From: Branchiostoma floridae
Taxonomy: Eukaryota; Chordata; Leptocardii; Amphioxiformes; Branchiostomatidae
Direction of reading: 5' to 3'
Length of the DNA stretch: 64,000 nt
Assembly (NCBI RefSeq): GCF_000003815.2
Contig: NC_049979.1
Location: 19,064,403-19,128,402 of the forward strand
Below are positions 10,005-64,000 of this stretch, piece after piece. The notes below the pieces were generated by a model. It had not been told where the DNA came from and did not search any database. It saw only the letters and a list, made by a program, of their open reading frames with translations. The position numbers were made by a program, and so were the translations under genes. Position 1 is the first letter of the stretch; every line of letters begins with the position of its first letter.

Positions 10005-10104
10005 NNNNNNNNNNNNNNNNNNNNNNNNNNNNNNNNNNNNNNNNNNNNNNNNNNNNNNNNNNNNNNNNNNNNNNNNNNNNNNNNNNNNNNNNNNNNNNNN
10101 NNNN
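10005..10104. other. Assembly gap (100 N)
   Basis: Exactly 100 N, the conventional placeholder for a gap of unknown size. Confidence 0.99.
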
Positions 10105-21682: not shown

Positions 21683-21782
21683 NNNNNNNNNNNNNNNNNN
21701 NNNNNNNNNNNNNNNNNNNNNNNNNNNNNNNNNNNNNNNNNNNNNNNNNNNNNNNNNNNNNNNNNNNNNNNNNNNNNNNNNN
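21683..21782. other. Assembly gap (100 N) flanked by poly-G
   Basis: 100 N lie between a run of G ending at 21682 and another run starting at 21783. The homopolymer probably caused the break, so the true missing length may be small. Confidence 0.99.
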
Positions 21783-24927: not shown

Positions 24928-30501
<5,574 letters not shown>

Positions 30502-39900: not shown

Positions 39901-42900
39901 TTACTTCTTAACTGAACCCCTCGACACACTACGACGGACCAGCAAATACCTTTCTGAAGACGTTTAACACCCTGGTTTACTCAACTTAAGTGGGAACCTC
40001 GACACATTCGTATTTCTATATATCACCTGTGCATTTGCTTCTCATTTTAACCACGAGTATTCACATAATAACCGTCTCGTAGTATGAGTTCTTGTCGGAG
40101 TCAACAATACCATTAATTATATGTTGGCCTCGTTGCTATGTGGCCAGATTTTGAGGTCAAGAAGTGAAAAGCTAAGAGACGGCTTTTATTTCGCACTGAC
40201 TCGTTAGGAATCTTCGATATGAGGAAAGACAGGTAGAAATCAAAGAAGTCAGCCGAAAATGATCTAAGATTTCTGCTGAGTATGTACCACGTTCTCGCCT
40301 ATGTTACTATCACGAGAGTCAATATTAGCCGTCTAAATGTGTTTGATCTCTTTTTGTGTCCGTTTCTATACCAAATAGTAGCTAGGACCGAATTCAAGTG
40401 ATATGGCCATCAAAGGTTTTCTGACTGTTTTTTGATTGTATGTCCCAGGTAAAATTGCAAATAACCTAAATGCATACGCTGTATGTATTTTTTGGTCGAT
40501 GAAGATCAGACATGTATTTTGGGTCTTTGGGCTCTCTAACTGCAAATAGTCTCTAAAACGAAGTTTTCCAAATGTTTCCAACTATAACAACTTGTTATAA
40601 ACACATGTCACATTTCAAGTGTTTATCTAAGGTGAAAAACAACCCGCATTTTTACTTGTTCAGCTAGTCAGGACCAAAACAAATCCGCGATTCGTAAACA
40701 AATCTTTATTTTTCGACTCGCTGGTGTAATATTGCAGTGAATATGCAATTCATCTTATCATGTAAAGAAATGATCAAATTTTCATCCCATGATACTAGAT
40801 AGCTATAATAAAGATTTGAAAAAACTAAAAACTTGAATTTTTCCCTACGACAGGAGACCCCGGTGCCTGGGACGTACGAAACCCGCGACTTTCTCGAAGA
40901 CCAGGAGCTGAACCCGGTGCCCATCACCTACAACTTCAAGAACGAGGGGCGGAAAAAAGACGCTGACGTGCTAAGACGAGGAGACACCCTCCTTCCCGGT
41001 GCCTACAATCTTAAAGACTTTCTGTACCCCATGCAGAAGTCTCTGTACACCTACTCCTTCAAGAACTCTAACAGAGACAACAACAGGGTTCTCATAGGGG
41101 TCAGGGATAAGGTAAGGACAAACTCTGATGATGTTCAGTTCAACAACAACTAACTTTTCATTAAATCTCAGAGCCGACATAAGTGCCCTGGGCACCTTAC
41201 ACTAATTGGTACGTTTTATATGCAGAAAACTATAGCAGAGAAAAGTTATATTCAGATATAGATGAAGGTAGAAGTTGTTGTAATATACTTAGAAAACTTA
41301 AAGTTAAAAATTGTGGGATAATTTCTGTTGTACATTCACAGGACCACAGAGTTGCTCCATGGGAGTATGAGACGAGATTCCCTCCTGTCCAGAAGTCTGG
41401 GTCAAAGTAAGGATTCCAACATTTCTTTTCACATATTTTCAATATCAAAACATCGACGGGGTGGCGGTTTTCTTGATAACACCCTGCCCTACATATCATA
41501 AAGTTGCACATAGCTGCAAACCCATGTTTAGTAGTTCGTCTAGATTCAGAACTCATACGAATGATTAGACGACTTCTAGTATTCGTGACCATGTTCTTTC
41601 AATTCACAATTTATTAAACTGTCGAATGCTTTTTGTTCATCACAGAAACATTTGTTTTTATATTTGCAGGCACTCGATGTTCAGGTCCAGTAGCCAGAGG
41701 GTCCCTAAGTATTTCGTCCCGGTACGTACACATAAATTTTGTTGTTATTCAGGTACAATGGTGAAGGGAGAATAAAATACACATTTCATGCAGAATGTTA
41801 CAACTTGGCCTTTTCTACAGCTTTAGAAAACGCATGGACATGTCTCTTAAGAGATACCTAAATATTTATGGACAGTAGTAAACGTTGTAAGCTAAACTTA
41901 AAAATACATTAAAGGTAGAACGTCTTTAAAACATCGGACAGGGCTGCAAAGAAAGGGTCACAGTAGAATAAATGTGATTGGATTTCGTTAAGTTCATCTT
42001 TTAAGCTTAATTTCATTGATGTTTACAAAACACATGAAAAGATTAAAGCACACGAGGCATTTTGTAACCCTAACCGCCGGTGAAAAACAACTCCCGTAGT
42101 TGAGCTGCAAGCAGGCGTCGTCCCTGGATACCGGGGTAGGCAGGAGGCAAAAACAGGTCCACATATGAATGGGGGACAAAGCGTCGAGCTGTAGCGGAGT
42201 ATCCATTTCGGACTGCTCTTTGTCCTGAAGGGTTTTTAATCTATACCCTCCCTCCAAGCGTACAAAGAAAAGAGAGTAACAATGTTCTATATAGGTCAGG
42301 AAAGGGCTCTCTCCGTCTTTACTATTCATTCTGCCCTTTCTGTTGTGGGTGTGGACAAGTTAATCAGGATTGGCCCATTTCAAGTGTCGAGTGGGGCACA
42401 GGCTTCAATTTTCTTGCTAAAAAAAAAGTCGTTTCGATGAACAAATGGCGGTGGTTGAGTGAAGACGTCTTTTCTTACGAAAATGTCAATCAACTGTCCA
42501 TTGTCGCAGTTTGCCTTCAGGCATGAACTTACAAAACTATACTACGTTCTATATCATTATTCAAGTAAAAAGTCTTTCAGACCCCCTTGAAAGTTGACAT
42601 AGTACAATCCAGTTAAAGTTACTGTTTAGTAATAGTTAAGTAGGCGAAACGATGAAGAAAGTATAACTACAAATGTTTAGGTGAGAGGCTTTTATTTCAA
42701 ATGCTCCTTGTTTAAGATTATTATTTCCCTCCTCCTAACAGAAGGACGGCCCGGGCCCAGGGGAGTACGAGTACCGCCCGCCCTCCACAGCCAAGACGGT
42801 CACGTCAAGTTTCCGGTCCAGGACACCGAGATTCCCTACCTCACATACCGTACGTTCACGGCACACGTTTAACGTGAAGACATGAAAATAAACTTTAAGA

Positions 42901-47606: not shown

Positions 47607-47748
47607 NNNNNNNNNNNNNNNNNNNNNNNNNNNNNNNNNNNNNNNNNNNNNNNNNNNNNNNNNNNNNNNNNNNNNNNNNNNNNNNNNNNNNNNNNNNNNN
47701 NNNNNNNNNNNNNNNNNNNNNNNNNNNNNNNNNNNNNNNNNNNNNNNN
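47607..47748. other. Assembly gap (142 N)
   Basis: 142 N just downstream of the TTC7 stop codon, so part of the TTC7 3' UTR is missing. The non-round length suggests an estimated gap size. Confidence 0.99.
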
Positions 47749-58610: not shown

Positions 58611-61087
58611 ATGCTGGACCAATATGCTGCCATACCCCCTCAAAATGACCAGACCAGACCAGTAGAGGAGTCCTGGTCACTAGCTGTCCTTCAGACTTCC
58701 ATTCTTGTTGTATTAGCTCTGGTGGTGGCGGCTGTACAAGTAACCCATCATCTCTTAAAGGTAACCTGTCCATTCTTACTTTTACTACGTCTCACAAAGG
58801 CTTATTTTCTCAAACATTTAAGTTAATGTAACTACCACGAAAGTGTGTTCCTGTAGAAATAGCTAGCCTATACAATATCAATTGAACCATGTTTATTTGT
58901 TTAGTCTGAGTACATTTCTATCAAATTAAGTGTATAACTGCAATACTGCACATTATTAGAGCACATACAAAAAGGTTCCTAATTATAAATGATACATGTC
59001 AAAATGTCTAATTCCCAATCACACAGAAAACCACAGACTCTGAAACATTTTAAACTCAGTTTGGCCTGATGTGTTGTAACTAGCGAACAGTAGTAACAAC
59101 TACATACATGTAGTGTTAAAGGTTAAGTAAATAGCCACTTTAATAGAGTTAGATACAGTCATGCATGTTATAGATCTCCTATCTGAAAATCCATCCCAAA
59201 TCAGAATGACATAAAGATGGCATGATTGCTTCAATTTACCATTAAGAGTTGTAAATTTGAGACAAGACAATTTTGGTGGACCTTCAATAACTTTTATTAA
59301 AGCACTCTTATGGAGACATCCGGATGACGCACAAGTCACAAGTCTTACACAAACAGTCACTACACCTTTCCCCATGTCCCAGAAGGGTCAGTCCGTCACC
59401 ATTTTTGAGTTGGAAAATGCTGGCTGAAGTGTTGATTTATTCTTCTTAAGTTTGAACTTTGGAATGATTGTTCTGCTATTGTCGATTCTGTGCATTATTT
59501 CTATTGCTATACAATGTCAAGTACTTACGCCATTTGCCAATACAGGCAAGTAAATGAAAACCCACATAGTAAAGATGTATACGAATTTCACATGCATGCA
59601 CATTACTACTACTGGAACTACACATATTACTACATGTAAGTAGTTAACTTAAAAAGGTGTTCAAGCTCACACTCCTGTACATTTAAGTTCTTTGTTGTTT
59701 AGACCTTACCTCTTACATGACATGTAATATCCAATATTTTCAACCATCATGTTTATATTTGGATGTAATTTTTATACTATGACAAATGTTTGACAAATGT
59801 ACAAAATGAAAAGAGAAGTCTCATCTACTCAGTGTAGAACACATACATCAGTACTCAAACGGGCAGTTTGATATATTGGGGCAATTCTATCTCGGATTCA
59901 ATTCTGGTTACACATTGTGGTTACCGTTTCATTCACTGTACCATTTTTTTTTTTTTTTGCAGACAATCTCACAGTCACAGACGTCATCACAATGTATCCA
60001 AGCTGACATCACAAATGAAACAACTGTGCAAGGCCATGGTAACATAACTGTCAATGCTGGTAGTGGCAGTACCATCAATATCATTACATGTCCTCATGAT
60101 GAACATCTTCCAAAAGAGAATTACTCCATAGGCACAAGACAAGAGCAAGAAGGAGAGACTAGGGCTCTTGTTCCACTTGTGCCCAAACCTGTTGGTAAAC
60201 CCTTACGATCGAACACACGGACACTGCTCACCTGTCACAAATTCATTGACAACATGATCATGTTGTCTGCAGAGGGAGAGATACTCAGATGCTGCAGCAT
60301 CGTTAAGAAGTTAATGAAGACAAAAACAGACCCGGACTCCCAAGTATCCCTCCGCCATGCTGCAAGTCTCAATGCCATTTATGGGGGGAATGTCACGAGG
60401 GCAAACCGTCTCCTTCGTGAGGCTATGGTACTCCTCCCAGAAACAATGCATGAGACAGAGCACAGGCTGTGGTGGAGCCGTCTGAAGTCGCTGGTGAAGA
60501 TGAGGGAAGGAAACTGCGATGTGGGGATAGTCTTTGCAGATGAGACCCTTCCGCTATTAGACACCATTGCACCTGGTTGTATGACAGGGTGGGTGCTCCT
60601 AAACCATGCCCGGCTCCTGACCCAGATCGCTGCAAACCAAGATGATGCAGATGACAGACAATTCCTAATGCTGAAGGCAGAGAGGGACTATCTGCTTGCC
60701 ATTGAACATGCAGAAAGTGAGTATCCCAACCGGATGCTTCACTCACAGTCACGAGTGCCACAGTTGGCCAAAATTCACCTCGCCCTACTGTACCTGGGCT
60801 GTAGGGAATCAGTTGACAACTTCAGGTTGGGAATCTCAGACATTTCTCTGGATGACATGAGGAAAGCCAAGAATGTCATTGTCACACTAGACAAGGAAGA
60901 ACTTGTTTGTAACTCATCCAAGTTCTGGCTAATGATGGCAAAAACCTGCCTGCACTATAGGCAGGGTAGTTACCTACAGGCCTATGACTTAGCTCAGAAA
61001 GCCAAAGTCTTTGCTACTGAACATTCTTTTGGAGGGTTTGTCACGTTTGCAGGCAGTACTGTGCAGTATTTACGGGATTATATTTAA
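58611..61087 (+). CDS. Membrane-anchored amyloid-motif/TPR-like protein, paralogue 1
   Basis: Two exons, 58611-58760 and 59963-61087, join in phase 0 to give 424 residues. Residues 24-45 (SLAVLQTSILVVLALVVAAV) form one membrane segment. Residues 71-92 hold a low-complexity beta-rich motif, VQGHGNITVNAGSGSTINI. From about residue 130 to the end the protein is helical and TPR-like, with blocks FIDNMIMLSAEGEI, VSLRHAASLNAIYGGNVTRA, GWVLLNHARLLTQIA and HAESEYPNRM. The second exon lies behind an 18-T tract and GCAG. The motif spacing V-N-x-G-x-x-S-x-I-x-I resembles RHIM-type amyloid motifs, but N-glycosylation sequons overlap it (NET, NIT), so topology matters. It lies tandem to the paralogue at 62248 and opposite TTC7. 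I recognise no named family. Confidence 0.85.
59275..59380. repeat. Duplicated noncoding block, copy 1
   Basis: CTTTCAATAAC-, AAGCACTCTT-, ACATCC(G/T)GATGACGCACAAG- and TCACAAG-like blocks recur in order at 61843-61945. Here the block lies in the intron of paralogue 1. Confidence 0.8.
60023..60088 (+). other. RHIM-like amyloid motif coding segment, paralogue 1
   Basis: It encodes residues 71-92. Alternating hydrophobic residues are separated by G, N, S and T, with a central NAG. It aligns with the corresponding segment of paralogue 2 without gaps, although the flanking sequence has diverged, so the motif itself appears to be conserved. Confidence 0.5.
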
Positions 61088-61842
61088 GATGTATATACAT
61101 GTATTGTCATGTGTGAATATTTGTTGCATTATACTGACAGTCTGACTTAAATATGCTTACCGTATTGTATTCATCTGATGTACACTAAGTAACATGACAT
61201 TTTATGATACAAATTTGTAGATAATCAATACAGCTCAATGGCACGAAGAACGGTCCTGCCACTGAAAAGAATGGAAAGCAGCCAATAGTGTTTAGAAACA
61301 TAACTGGTGAAATACTCTGAAACAATCACGAATCACGTCAAAGTTTACAGCACAACACTTGCAATAGGTAGTATTTTTCAGTTTGCAACATCGGCTAAGA
61401 AAAATATCTTTGCCTAGTATCAAAACTTCTGTGCTGAATTATGCACAACTCGAAATACATGTAAACCATGTCTTTAAAGATTCTGAAATGCACTGTAACA
61501 GAAAATTTTAAGTTACCGTGTGGACTTTGATAGTAACATTTTAAATTAGTCCTGATATTGTCATTGATATTGTCAAGTCACTACTATACATATTTATACA
61601 TATATGCAACGCCTTAATATATATTTGTACATTATTCCAAAGAAATTGAGTAAAAAGAAGTGTCATTGAATGGCTGTATTTTTTTTTGGTTATTGAAATT
61701 AAATCAACAATCAAACATGATGCCCTCCTGGCCACAGAAATATATGGCATCGTAAAAGTATGACACATCTGTGTAATGCTTTTAATACACCTTAAAAATT
61801 GCTCCAACTATGATTAGATCTGAGACATTGTCCCTTAGTTCT

Positions 61843-61945
61843 GATGGACTTTCAATAACTGACTGAAGCACTCTTCAGGAAACATCCTGATGACGCACAA
61901 GTCACAAGCCTTATGTAAACAGTAACACACCTATCCAGTCCCCTG
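61843..61945. repeat. Duplicated noncoding block, copy 2
   Basis: This is the diverged copy of 59275-59380. Here it lies upstream of the first exon of paralogue 2. Weaker similarity continues about 100 bp further in both copies (TGTTGATTT...). Confidence 0.8.
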
Positions 61946-62247
61946 AAACAATTACCAATCTGAAACAATTACAAAGGTCCCATATGTTTAGACTCTGTGC
62001 AAAATGAGTCCCTAAATTACTGGCTACAATTAATGTTGATTTGCTCATCACCAAACAGTGGTAATAACTGGCATTCACTTAATACTTTAACTATTATTTG
62101 CATCAAGGAAATGTCTAATGATGTTACATATTGACTTTCACATAACAGGTGCGGTCCAGTTGAAACTAATTTGCATAAGGGAACACCCCTTTATTTCCTG
62201 GTGTTCATTGCTGGTTTGCCCTTCCTACAGTTTGCTACAGTATAATC

Positions 62248-64000
62248 TTGGGTTGGAAATTTGATGGTTTTATGATATCAATTATGTCAGACCACCCTGT
62301 TGCTTGTGCTGTTCCCCCACAAACCCCCCATCCCATGTGGAGTGAAGAATGGCCTCTAGTTTTACTTCTGACAGCTATCCTGGCTATACAGCAGCTACGT
62401 TTCCATCTCATGGTGAGTATCTTAGGTCTTTCTGGGAGTCTCTTAGACTGAAGCTGGTCTCTTAGTTTCAGTCAATATGAGTAGCTAATTGAAAGGACTT
62501 TATTCCATGAGAAATAACACGGGCTTTCTAAAAAAAATATTTTACTGAATGTTGACCTGTCAGTGAAGCTTGTATTGGATCATTCATACCCCAAAATACA
62601 GATTGGAAAGGAAATATATTAGGCAATACCTGTGACTTGAAAAGGCTGTACATCATTAATCTATTAATTATCTTTTATGATCATAATCATTTTCTCTGAC
62701 ATATAGTGCATAGCATACAGTCTGACTTTTACATGTCCTGTATGAAATGATAAATACAGTGTATCAAGAGGTGTTGTATATGTGCACTTATTGTAACCGA
62801 CAAGCATTAAAAGCTTTGGGTAAAAACCAATAATGTCTACATTCAGAGATACAAAATAACACATGTACAGTCATACAGTTGCTTAATAGTGACAATACAT
62901 GACATTGTATGGTATCTTATCTATGCAGTGCTGTTTACTGCATGGCAATTACATTAAATGGTTTGTCATATTTATGAACTTTTATCAAAAACAAATGATA
63001 CAGTTAAACAGTACTCTCACTATTGTGCTAACAGTGTTATCTATGGGTCAAAGTCTAAATGGTGATTGTGCTCTTTGTTCACCTCCATTTGGGTGAGCCA
63101 TGACATGTAAAATATAATCAGCAAGAACACCTTGTCCTCAATGGGCCTAATAGCAGTTTCTGGAAATAGAATTTCTCATTTTCAAAACTTACTTCAGGAA
63201 AGGGTACAGGCTAAACAATCTGATGGAGTTGAAACCACCAACACCACAACAATTAATGGAAATGACAACATAAACATCAACACAGGAAACAACAGTACTG
63301 TTGTTGTTACTACAAAGTCTATGAACACTTCACAAGAATGTTGTGATAAAGATACACAGCCTACTCAACAACACAGATGGCGAGAAGAGGAGAACACAAT
63401 AAACTTTTTCTCTGTTTTGCCAAAGCCTGTTGGCAAGTTTCCAAGGTTGAACACAAAAACTCAAGTCACCTGTCGAAGATACATGGACAATTTGGCCCAG
63501 TTGTCAGCAGAAGGAAAGATTTACAAATGTGAGAGGACCATAGAAAGGTTACGAAAGGTAAAGATGGACCCAGATTGTCAGGTGTCCCTCCGCCACGCGG
63601 CCGCCCTTAATGCCATCAATGAGGGAAAATTCCAGAAGGCAAGTCGGCTGCTTGGTGAAGCGGAGATCCTCCTACCAGACACGAGAAACGAGGACGAACA
63701 CAGACTGCGGTGGTATCATCAGAAGTCCTTGCTAAAGTTACAGCAAGGCAAACATGCTGCTGGGATACAGTTAACAGAGGAGGCATTATCCTTAGTGTCA
63801 ATCATAGCCCCTGGATGTATCTCAGCCTGGCTTCTCATCAACCACGCCTGGTTTCTCACAAAGATCGCCGCAGACGAGGACAACACAAACGATAGACAGG
63901 CCCTCATAAAGAAGGCAAAAACATTTTACCAGCAAGCGATAGACCACGCAGAGAGCGAGTATCCCATGCCAGGGCTCGTGACTGCGACTAGATTTGGTCG
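62248..64000 (+). CDS. Membrane-anchored amyloid-motif/TPR-like protein, paralogue 2 (truncated by window)
   Basis: Exon 1 ends at 62412 with donor GTGAGT. Three in-frame starts are possible (62248, 62272, 62284); 62284 gives a start most like paralogue 1. Exon 2 starts at 63198 after TTCAG, phase 0, and runs off the window. A membrane segment (WPLVLLLTAILAIQQL) precedes the beta-rich motif INGNDNININTGNNSTVVV (63246-63311). The helical domain repeats paralogue 1 closely: YMDNLAQLSAEGKIYKC, VSLRHAAALNAINEGKFQKA, WLLINHAWFLTKIAADEDN and HAESEYPMPG. The layout of short membrane exon plus long exon is identical. Function is unknown. Confidence 0.85.
63246..63311 (+). other. RHIM-like amyloid motif coding segment, paralogue 2
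   Basis: The encoded stretch keeps the same positions as paralogue 1: T-[VI]-x-G-x-x-N-I-x-[VI]-N-x-G-x-x-S-T-[VI]-x-[VI]. Asn-rich substitutions replace Gly and Ser. Confidence 0.5.

Follow-up and report, generated by a model that had tools for sequence, protein, structure and literature searches.

What kind of protein is encoded by the neighbouring genes near the 3′ end of this stretch of Branchiostoma floridae DNA, and what might be done by a conserved motif placed between a predicted membrane anchor and a helical domain? The whole stretch analysed, called the window here, is 64,000 nt long, and both genes lie on its plus strand. Gene 1 (58611-61087) begins with a 50-codon exon (58611..58760), which encodes a tail at the N-terminus followed by a single hydrophobic segment (residues 24-42) and ends at the donor AAG/GTAACC (the slash marks the exon boundary). 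A phase-0 GT..AG intron (58761..59962) leads to the acceptor ttttgcag/ACA and to exon 2 (59963..61087), which encodes 374 aa plus the stop. In the predicted product of 424 residues the hydrophobic segment is followed by a beta-type Asn/Gly/Ser/Thr motif of 30 residues (exon-2 residues 14-43; 60002..60091) and by a TPR-like helical domain, for which 13 helices are predicted by a low-confidence model (exon-2 residues 85-373; 60215..61084). Gene 2 has the same two-exon, phase-0 plan, with a 43-codon exon 1 encoding the hydrophobic segment (62284..62412; donor ATG/GTGAGT), a GT..AG intron (62413..63197) and a long exon that starts at 63198 (acceptor cttcag/GAA) and contains the motif (63228..63317). 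A transposon of the inverted-repeat kind, 1307 bp long and marked by a 5-bp target duplication, splits this exon at 63970; the part 5′ of the insertion occupies 63198..63969, and the first 31 bases of the element, also on the plus strand (63970..64000), are followed by the rest of it past the window end (L009 1373-2679). The exon-2 proteins of the two genes are 46% identical. At the level of the sequence, the structure given in an earlier note (two paralogues, each with two exons, a membrane segment, a beta motif and a TPR-like part) is confirmed.

That note had also described a tandem pair; the tandem arrangement holds, but the genes form a cluster of six at this locus, with four more dispersed over three other contigs. 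Two protein searches of the same genome with different members (13 and 12 matches) recovered the same ten genes, which makes the shared plan more than a chance likeness. This number is a lower bound; the multi-gene family that had been suspected has at least ten members in its own genome. The motif and the TPR part lie in open frames in seven of the ten, and a scan limited to phase 0, with the gene at 19137491 left out, found in-frame acceptors 5′ of the motif at 8/10 sites. As the note had it, no named family fits: none was found in Pfam, PADLOC or PDB sequences, PADLOC returning three families that each matched one of nine members (best E 0.0049). The family is described in none of the titles and abstract openings of the literature matches listed for amphioxus, amyloid motifs, RHIM and tetratricopeptide.

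The assignment of a TPR-like domain stands in part. About six helix hairpins are predicted, with 39-58 residues between first helices, and the structures of Rap, LGN, KLC1 and STAND-TPR proteins were among the top fold matches (structure-aligned identity 6-16%); the model itself, whose alignment took in genes 1 and 2 only, is of low confidence (pLDDT 46.8), and no Pfam model, TPR or other, exceeded its cut-off in the nine members scanned. Pfam TPR_2 matched three of these below cut-off (best E 0.022), and the best Pfam match of any kind was ARM_TT21 in one (E 0.0037). A PDB sequence search with gene 1 exon 2 returned Cdc4 only (E 0.55), and one with the family profile returned nothing at E<=1. 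The TPR label used here is provisional, being based on sub-threshold Pfam matches and a low-confidence model.

The beta-type motif proved to be real and conserved, as had been proposed. G11, N14 and G20 are present in 11/11 peptides and N5 in 10/11, a count that leaves out a twelfth, degenerate copy. The gene at 19137491 has three copies in one frame, one of them degenerate. Self-similarity within the motif peaks at a lag of 9 (nominal p 0.005) and at one of 2 (nominal p 0.017); across all lags tested, the signal at lag 9 has p 0.094. The nine-residue spacing had prompted comparison with RTX-like Ca-binding nonapeptide repeats, whose consensus and usual copy number do not appear to fit. In the predicted structure the motif is coil, with a block-mean pLDDT of 35 or less. 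The sole Pfam match to the motif peptides was Spiralin (1/10, E 0.035); the sole PDB match to the motif profile, Cdc4 (E 1.6), was taken as chance.

Selection on the motif was estimated from the ten pairs formed by five members, which are not independent of one another. Within the motif dN was below dS in all ten, with dS saturated in one pair; the one case of dN above dS was the short linker in a single pair, and the pairwise ratios indicate constraint on the motif and TPR part and no diversification. Per site, the motif also had fewer amino-acid-changing differences than the linker in 10/10 pairs, by a small gap in two (0.326 v 0.351 and 0.369 v 0.398). These values bear on the possibility that the family consists of ordinary N-anchored TPR scaffolds or receptors of the Tom20/Tom70-type plan, in which the work would be done by the TPR domain, and the motif would be a conserved linker or a small structural cap without any polymerising role. 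Such an arrangement is a serious possibility, if a somewhat doubtful one; a plain linker would account neither for the smaller change in the motif than in the adjoining linker nor for its three copies in one member.

The position of the motif relative to the membrane was considered from exon 1 and from residues conserved across the family. Candidates for exon 1 were found for six of the ten genes by a scan whose thresholds had been loosened following earlier scans: seven plus-strand matches in 66,441 bases, six of which lie 0.3-1.2 kb 5′ of an exon with the motif, compared with three matches in the minus-strand control. The same scan found no exon 1 for the other four genes. For one of these, at C5:4288384, an assembly gap was rejected as the reason, the nearest upstream gap lying ~4.6 kb away. 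Beside the hydrophobic segments of the six genes, K/R residues number 1, 0, 0, 0, 0 and 0 on the N side and 1, 2, 2, 3, 1 and 2 on the C side, the C side being higher in five and equal in gene 1, and by net charge the C side is the more positive one in four, with ties in two. This charge bias points tentatively to a cytosolic C-terminus.

Other features could indicate the lumenal side, namely conserved cysteines (C91, C110 and C206 in 9/9 rows, C316 in 8/9 and C280 in 7/9, with truncated gene 2 a gap at both of the latter) and a mild enrichment of N-x-S/T sequons in the 12 motif peptides (21 against 13.9 in shuffles, p 0.014, which is overstated as the rows are related). They would suit a lumenal or extracellular glycoprotein held by a type II anchor, its juxtamembrane stalk N-glycosylated and its TPR domain disulfide-bonded. 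We consider a protein of this kind unlikely, since all six genes have K/R residues C-terminal to the segment and just one has any N-terminal to it, and since three of the 12 peptides have no sequon anywhere. N14 is present in 12/12 peptides and is part of a sequon in five only; its retention without a sequon in the other seven suggests that the Asn is kept for another reason. Functionless low complexity driven by composition, within a tandem array that is decaying, would agree with the transposon that breaks gene 2 and with the degenerate copy in the 19137491 gene, but is very improbable given dN below dS in every pair, the invariant G, N and G and the seven genes with open frames.

The reading that we tentatively prefer, at somewhat less than even chances, is that the genes encode membrane-tethered TPR adaptors that assemble homotypically, perhaps as an amyloid-like structure, through their juxtamembrane motif. 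The sequence gives the order hydrophobic segment, conserved 30-residue motif and about six predicted helix hairpins; the proteins would be single-pass and N-terminally anchored, with the short N-terminus probably toward the lumen or outside and the remainder cytosolic. The TPR domain would bind a partner, and clustering at the membrane would let the juxtamembrane motifs of separate molecules stack as a cross-beta or beta-arch structure, each motif contributing up to three short beta strands at a spacing of some nine residues, with Asn and Gly at fixed places. The stacked assembly would form a scaffold or signalosome bound to the membrane. The innate-immune role that the note had suggested, for a family that may be lineage-specific, found no support in this analysis, and an immune output of the family is a guess. 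A more specific proposal, that the motif is a so far undescribed signalling motif of the amyloid type in animals, separate from RHIM, in membrane-anchored TPR receptors that polymerise at the membrane on ligand binding, with the three-copy member nucleating the others, seems improbable. A receptor-effector amyloid pair is disfavoured because the RHIM tetrad is absent and the motif was found in no protein outside the family, all matches of two motif searches of limited sensitivity (8/8 and 3/3) falling within it. The search with eight matches missed four of the 12 family copies, so divergent partner proteins may be overlooked.

To our knowledge, signalling amyloids in animals are known mainly from RHIM proteins. 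A conserved Asn/Gly beta motif beside a membrane anchor in an animal family would, if it assembles, be a second type; if it does not, the genes still represent a TPR-like family that has no name, seems to be anchored and carries a defined motif. The motif resembles the RHIM, PP and BASS3 amyloid signalling motifs (RIPK1/3, fungal HELLP and bacterial BASS3) in being short, Asn-rich and of beta type, at ~20-30 residues. A G-x-x-N step is found at its core in 11/12 family peptides and also occurs in the RIPK1 and RIPK3 RHIMs. In contrast to the RHIM, PP and BASS3 proteins, no kinase, TIR, NACHT or other named domain was matched by Pfam in the exon-2 proteins. The RHIM core tetrad, given in PMC9444067 as (V/I)Q(V/I/L/C)G, occurs in 0/12 motif peptides, and identity with RHIM was rejected because of this absence. 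A Pfam scan of ten motif peptides at E<=10 gave no RHIM match, under HMMER filters that drop weak short matches. RHIM proteins are already reported from Branchiostoma (PMC9444067), and PMC8195603 reports an expansion of DED/TRADD-N proteins there. The present family is likewise expanded, in this case in B. floridae; unlike those proteins, it had no DED or TRADD-N match among the Pfam families listed for nine members at E<=1. Tom20/Tom70-type proteins are N-anchored TPR receptors, from which the family differs by its extra conserved beta motif, and the PDB search gave no sequence match to them. With TPR adaptors of the LGN, Rap and KLC type the family shares, in its low-confidence predicted model, an array of helix hairpins, and it differs from them in having a hydrophobic anchor and a beta motif ahead of the TPR part.

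Both genes in the window follow a two-exon plan, in which a short exon with one hydrophobic segment precedes a long exon carrying a 30-residue, beta-type Asn/Gly/Ser/Thr motif and a TPR-like part, and the coordinates and architecture proposed for them in the earlier note were correct on a GT/AG, phase-0 reading. With splice sites read from the sequence only, gene 1 comprises exon 1 at 58611-58760 (+ strand, 50 residues) and exon 2 at 59963-61087 (+, 374 residues), for a predicted protein of 424 residues; in gene 2, the short exon spans 62284-62412 (+) and the long one starts at 63198 (+). Elsewhere in the window lie a calmodulin-like exon with strong EF-hand matches (29501-29917, +; E 1.5e-22), a weak match under the cut-off to a sperm-tail PG-rich repeat (40812-41150, +; E 0.0056), and assembly N runs at 10005-10104, 21683-21782 and 47607-47748.

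The two paralogues, described earlier as a tandem pair, are indeed present but belong to a family of at least ten genes. Searching the genome (513 Mb, 431 contigs) with gene 1 exon 2 gave 13 hits assigned to 10 genes, and a distant member, C1:19137491, gave 12 hits in the identical 10; since only the best candidates were scored, this number is a lower bound. Six genes lie on one strand of the same contig, C1, spanning about 30 kb (19124365, 19127618 with 19129674, 19131491, 19137491, 19141662 and 19152189), and the genome searches placed the others at C4:30138069, C5:4288384, C5:4296068 with 4295521, and C219:584648 with 580690. Gene 1 is 29 to 72% identical to the other eight rows of a nine-row alignment, and none of the papers listed in the literature searches describes the family. 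A midpoint-rooted tree of 10 rows, one of them restricted to a C-terminal part and another being gene 2 with its flanks joined, places the four dispersed copies among the C1 members (two of the seven inner branches are weak), suggesting that they spread from the C1 cluster. About 4 kb separates the motif exon from the TPR exon of the C219 copy (C219:580687-585574), which may therefore carry an additional linker intron, and in the C5:4296068 member an N run (C5:4295695-4296069) takes out the middle of the long exon, between the motif and the C-terminal helices.

Gene 2 is truncated in the assembly by a 1307-bp inverted-repeat element. The insert begins in the coding exon at 63970 (63970-64000 in the window; 1373-2679 of the extracted locus), has inverted termini, CAGGGCTC-NN-GACT, and is flanked by a 5-bp target duplication, CATGC. 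As assembled, the long exon encodes 281 residues before a stop codon within the insert; joining the flanks restores a single open frame of 381 residues whose junction, by eye, agrees in length with gene 1 residue for residue. The CAGGG ends of the insert are reminiscent of hAT elements, but hAT elements produce 8-bp target duplications, unlike the 5-bp duplication seen here.

The motif is known in 12 copies in the 10 genes, three of them in tandem in the single 539-residue frame of the 19137491 gene (802-2418 of its extracted locus), where the middle copy has lost the first conserved Gly. With this degenerate copy omitted, all 11 remaining copies have G11, N14 and G20, and 10 of them have N5. 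Self-similarity peaked at lags of 9 (p 0.005) and 2 (p 0.017) residues, but with lag 9 at p 0.094 over all lags tested, a three-strand reading is suggestive only. Substitutions were compared among five members (10 non-independent pairs): amino-acid-changing differences per site were fewer in the motif than in the linker behind it in all 10 pairs, by a small margin in two, and exceeded those of the TPR part in eight. dN was below dS in motif and TPR part in every pair; one pair had dN above dS in its short linker. N-x-S/T sequons numbered 21 in the 12 motif peptides compared with 13.9 ± 2.9 in shuffled sequences (p 0.014, a significance overstated because the rows are related). Since Asn at N14 is kept in 12/12 peptides and its sequon in only 5/12, the pattern speaks for a structural role of this residue.

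A scan of 66,441 bases for phase-0 ATG-hydrophobic-donor exons, with thresholds loosened after earlier passes, gave seven plus-strand hits and three on the minus-strand control, so hits by chance cannot be called rare. Six candidates lie 0.3-1.2 kb upstream of an exon bearing the motif (those of genes 1 and 2, 19131491, 19152189, C4 and C5:4296068); the seventh (C219) sits between motif and TPR exons and was not counted. This phase-0 scan found no exon 1 for four of the ten genes, which assembly gaps do not explain. Peptides from C4, C5:4296068 and 19152189 share a start, M-[LF]-L-[ED], and an Asp-Phe pair ahead of the hydrophobic segment. Within 15 residues of the segment, Lys/Arg counts in the six genes were 1, 0, 0, 0, 0 and 0 on the N side and 1, 2, 2, 3, 1 and 2 on the C side, and by net charge the C side was the more positive in four, with a tie in two. 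This bias favours, without proving, an N-out, C-cytosol orientation. The rival reading, a lumenal TPR part, is kept alive by conserved cysteines: positions 91, 110 and 206 of gene 1 exon 2 are present in 9/9 aligned rows, and 280 and 316 are near-invariant (7/9 and 8/9). Five such columns would not obviously be expected of a cytosolic TPR domain.

The sequence establishes the genes, the family, the conservation of the motif and the disruption of gene 2, whereas the topology is inferred. Of the roles considered, the most likely is that of a membrane-tethered TPR adaptor with a juxtamembrane motif for homotypic assembly; that the motif would mediate such assembly, perhaps amyloid-like, is a guess, as is any immune output. 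A consensus motif peptide gave eight genomic hits, every one in the family, and a second peptide gave three, all within the triple-motif 19137491 gene; neither search found a partner protein carrying the motif, at a limited sensitivity, the first having missed four known copies. RHIM proteins have already been reported from Branchiostoma (PMC9444067). The RHIM tetrad is lacking in all 12 copies of the present motif, which therefore falls outside the RHIM family, although it might function similarly.
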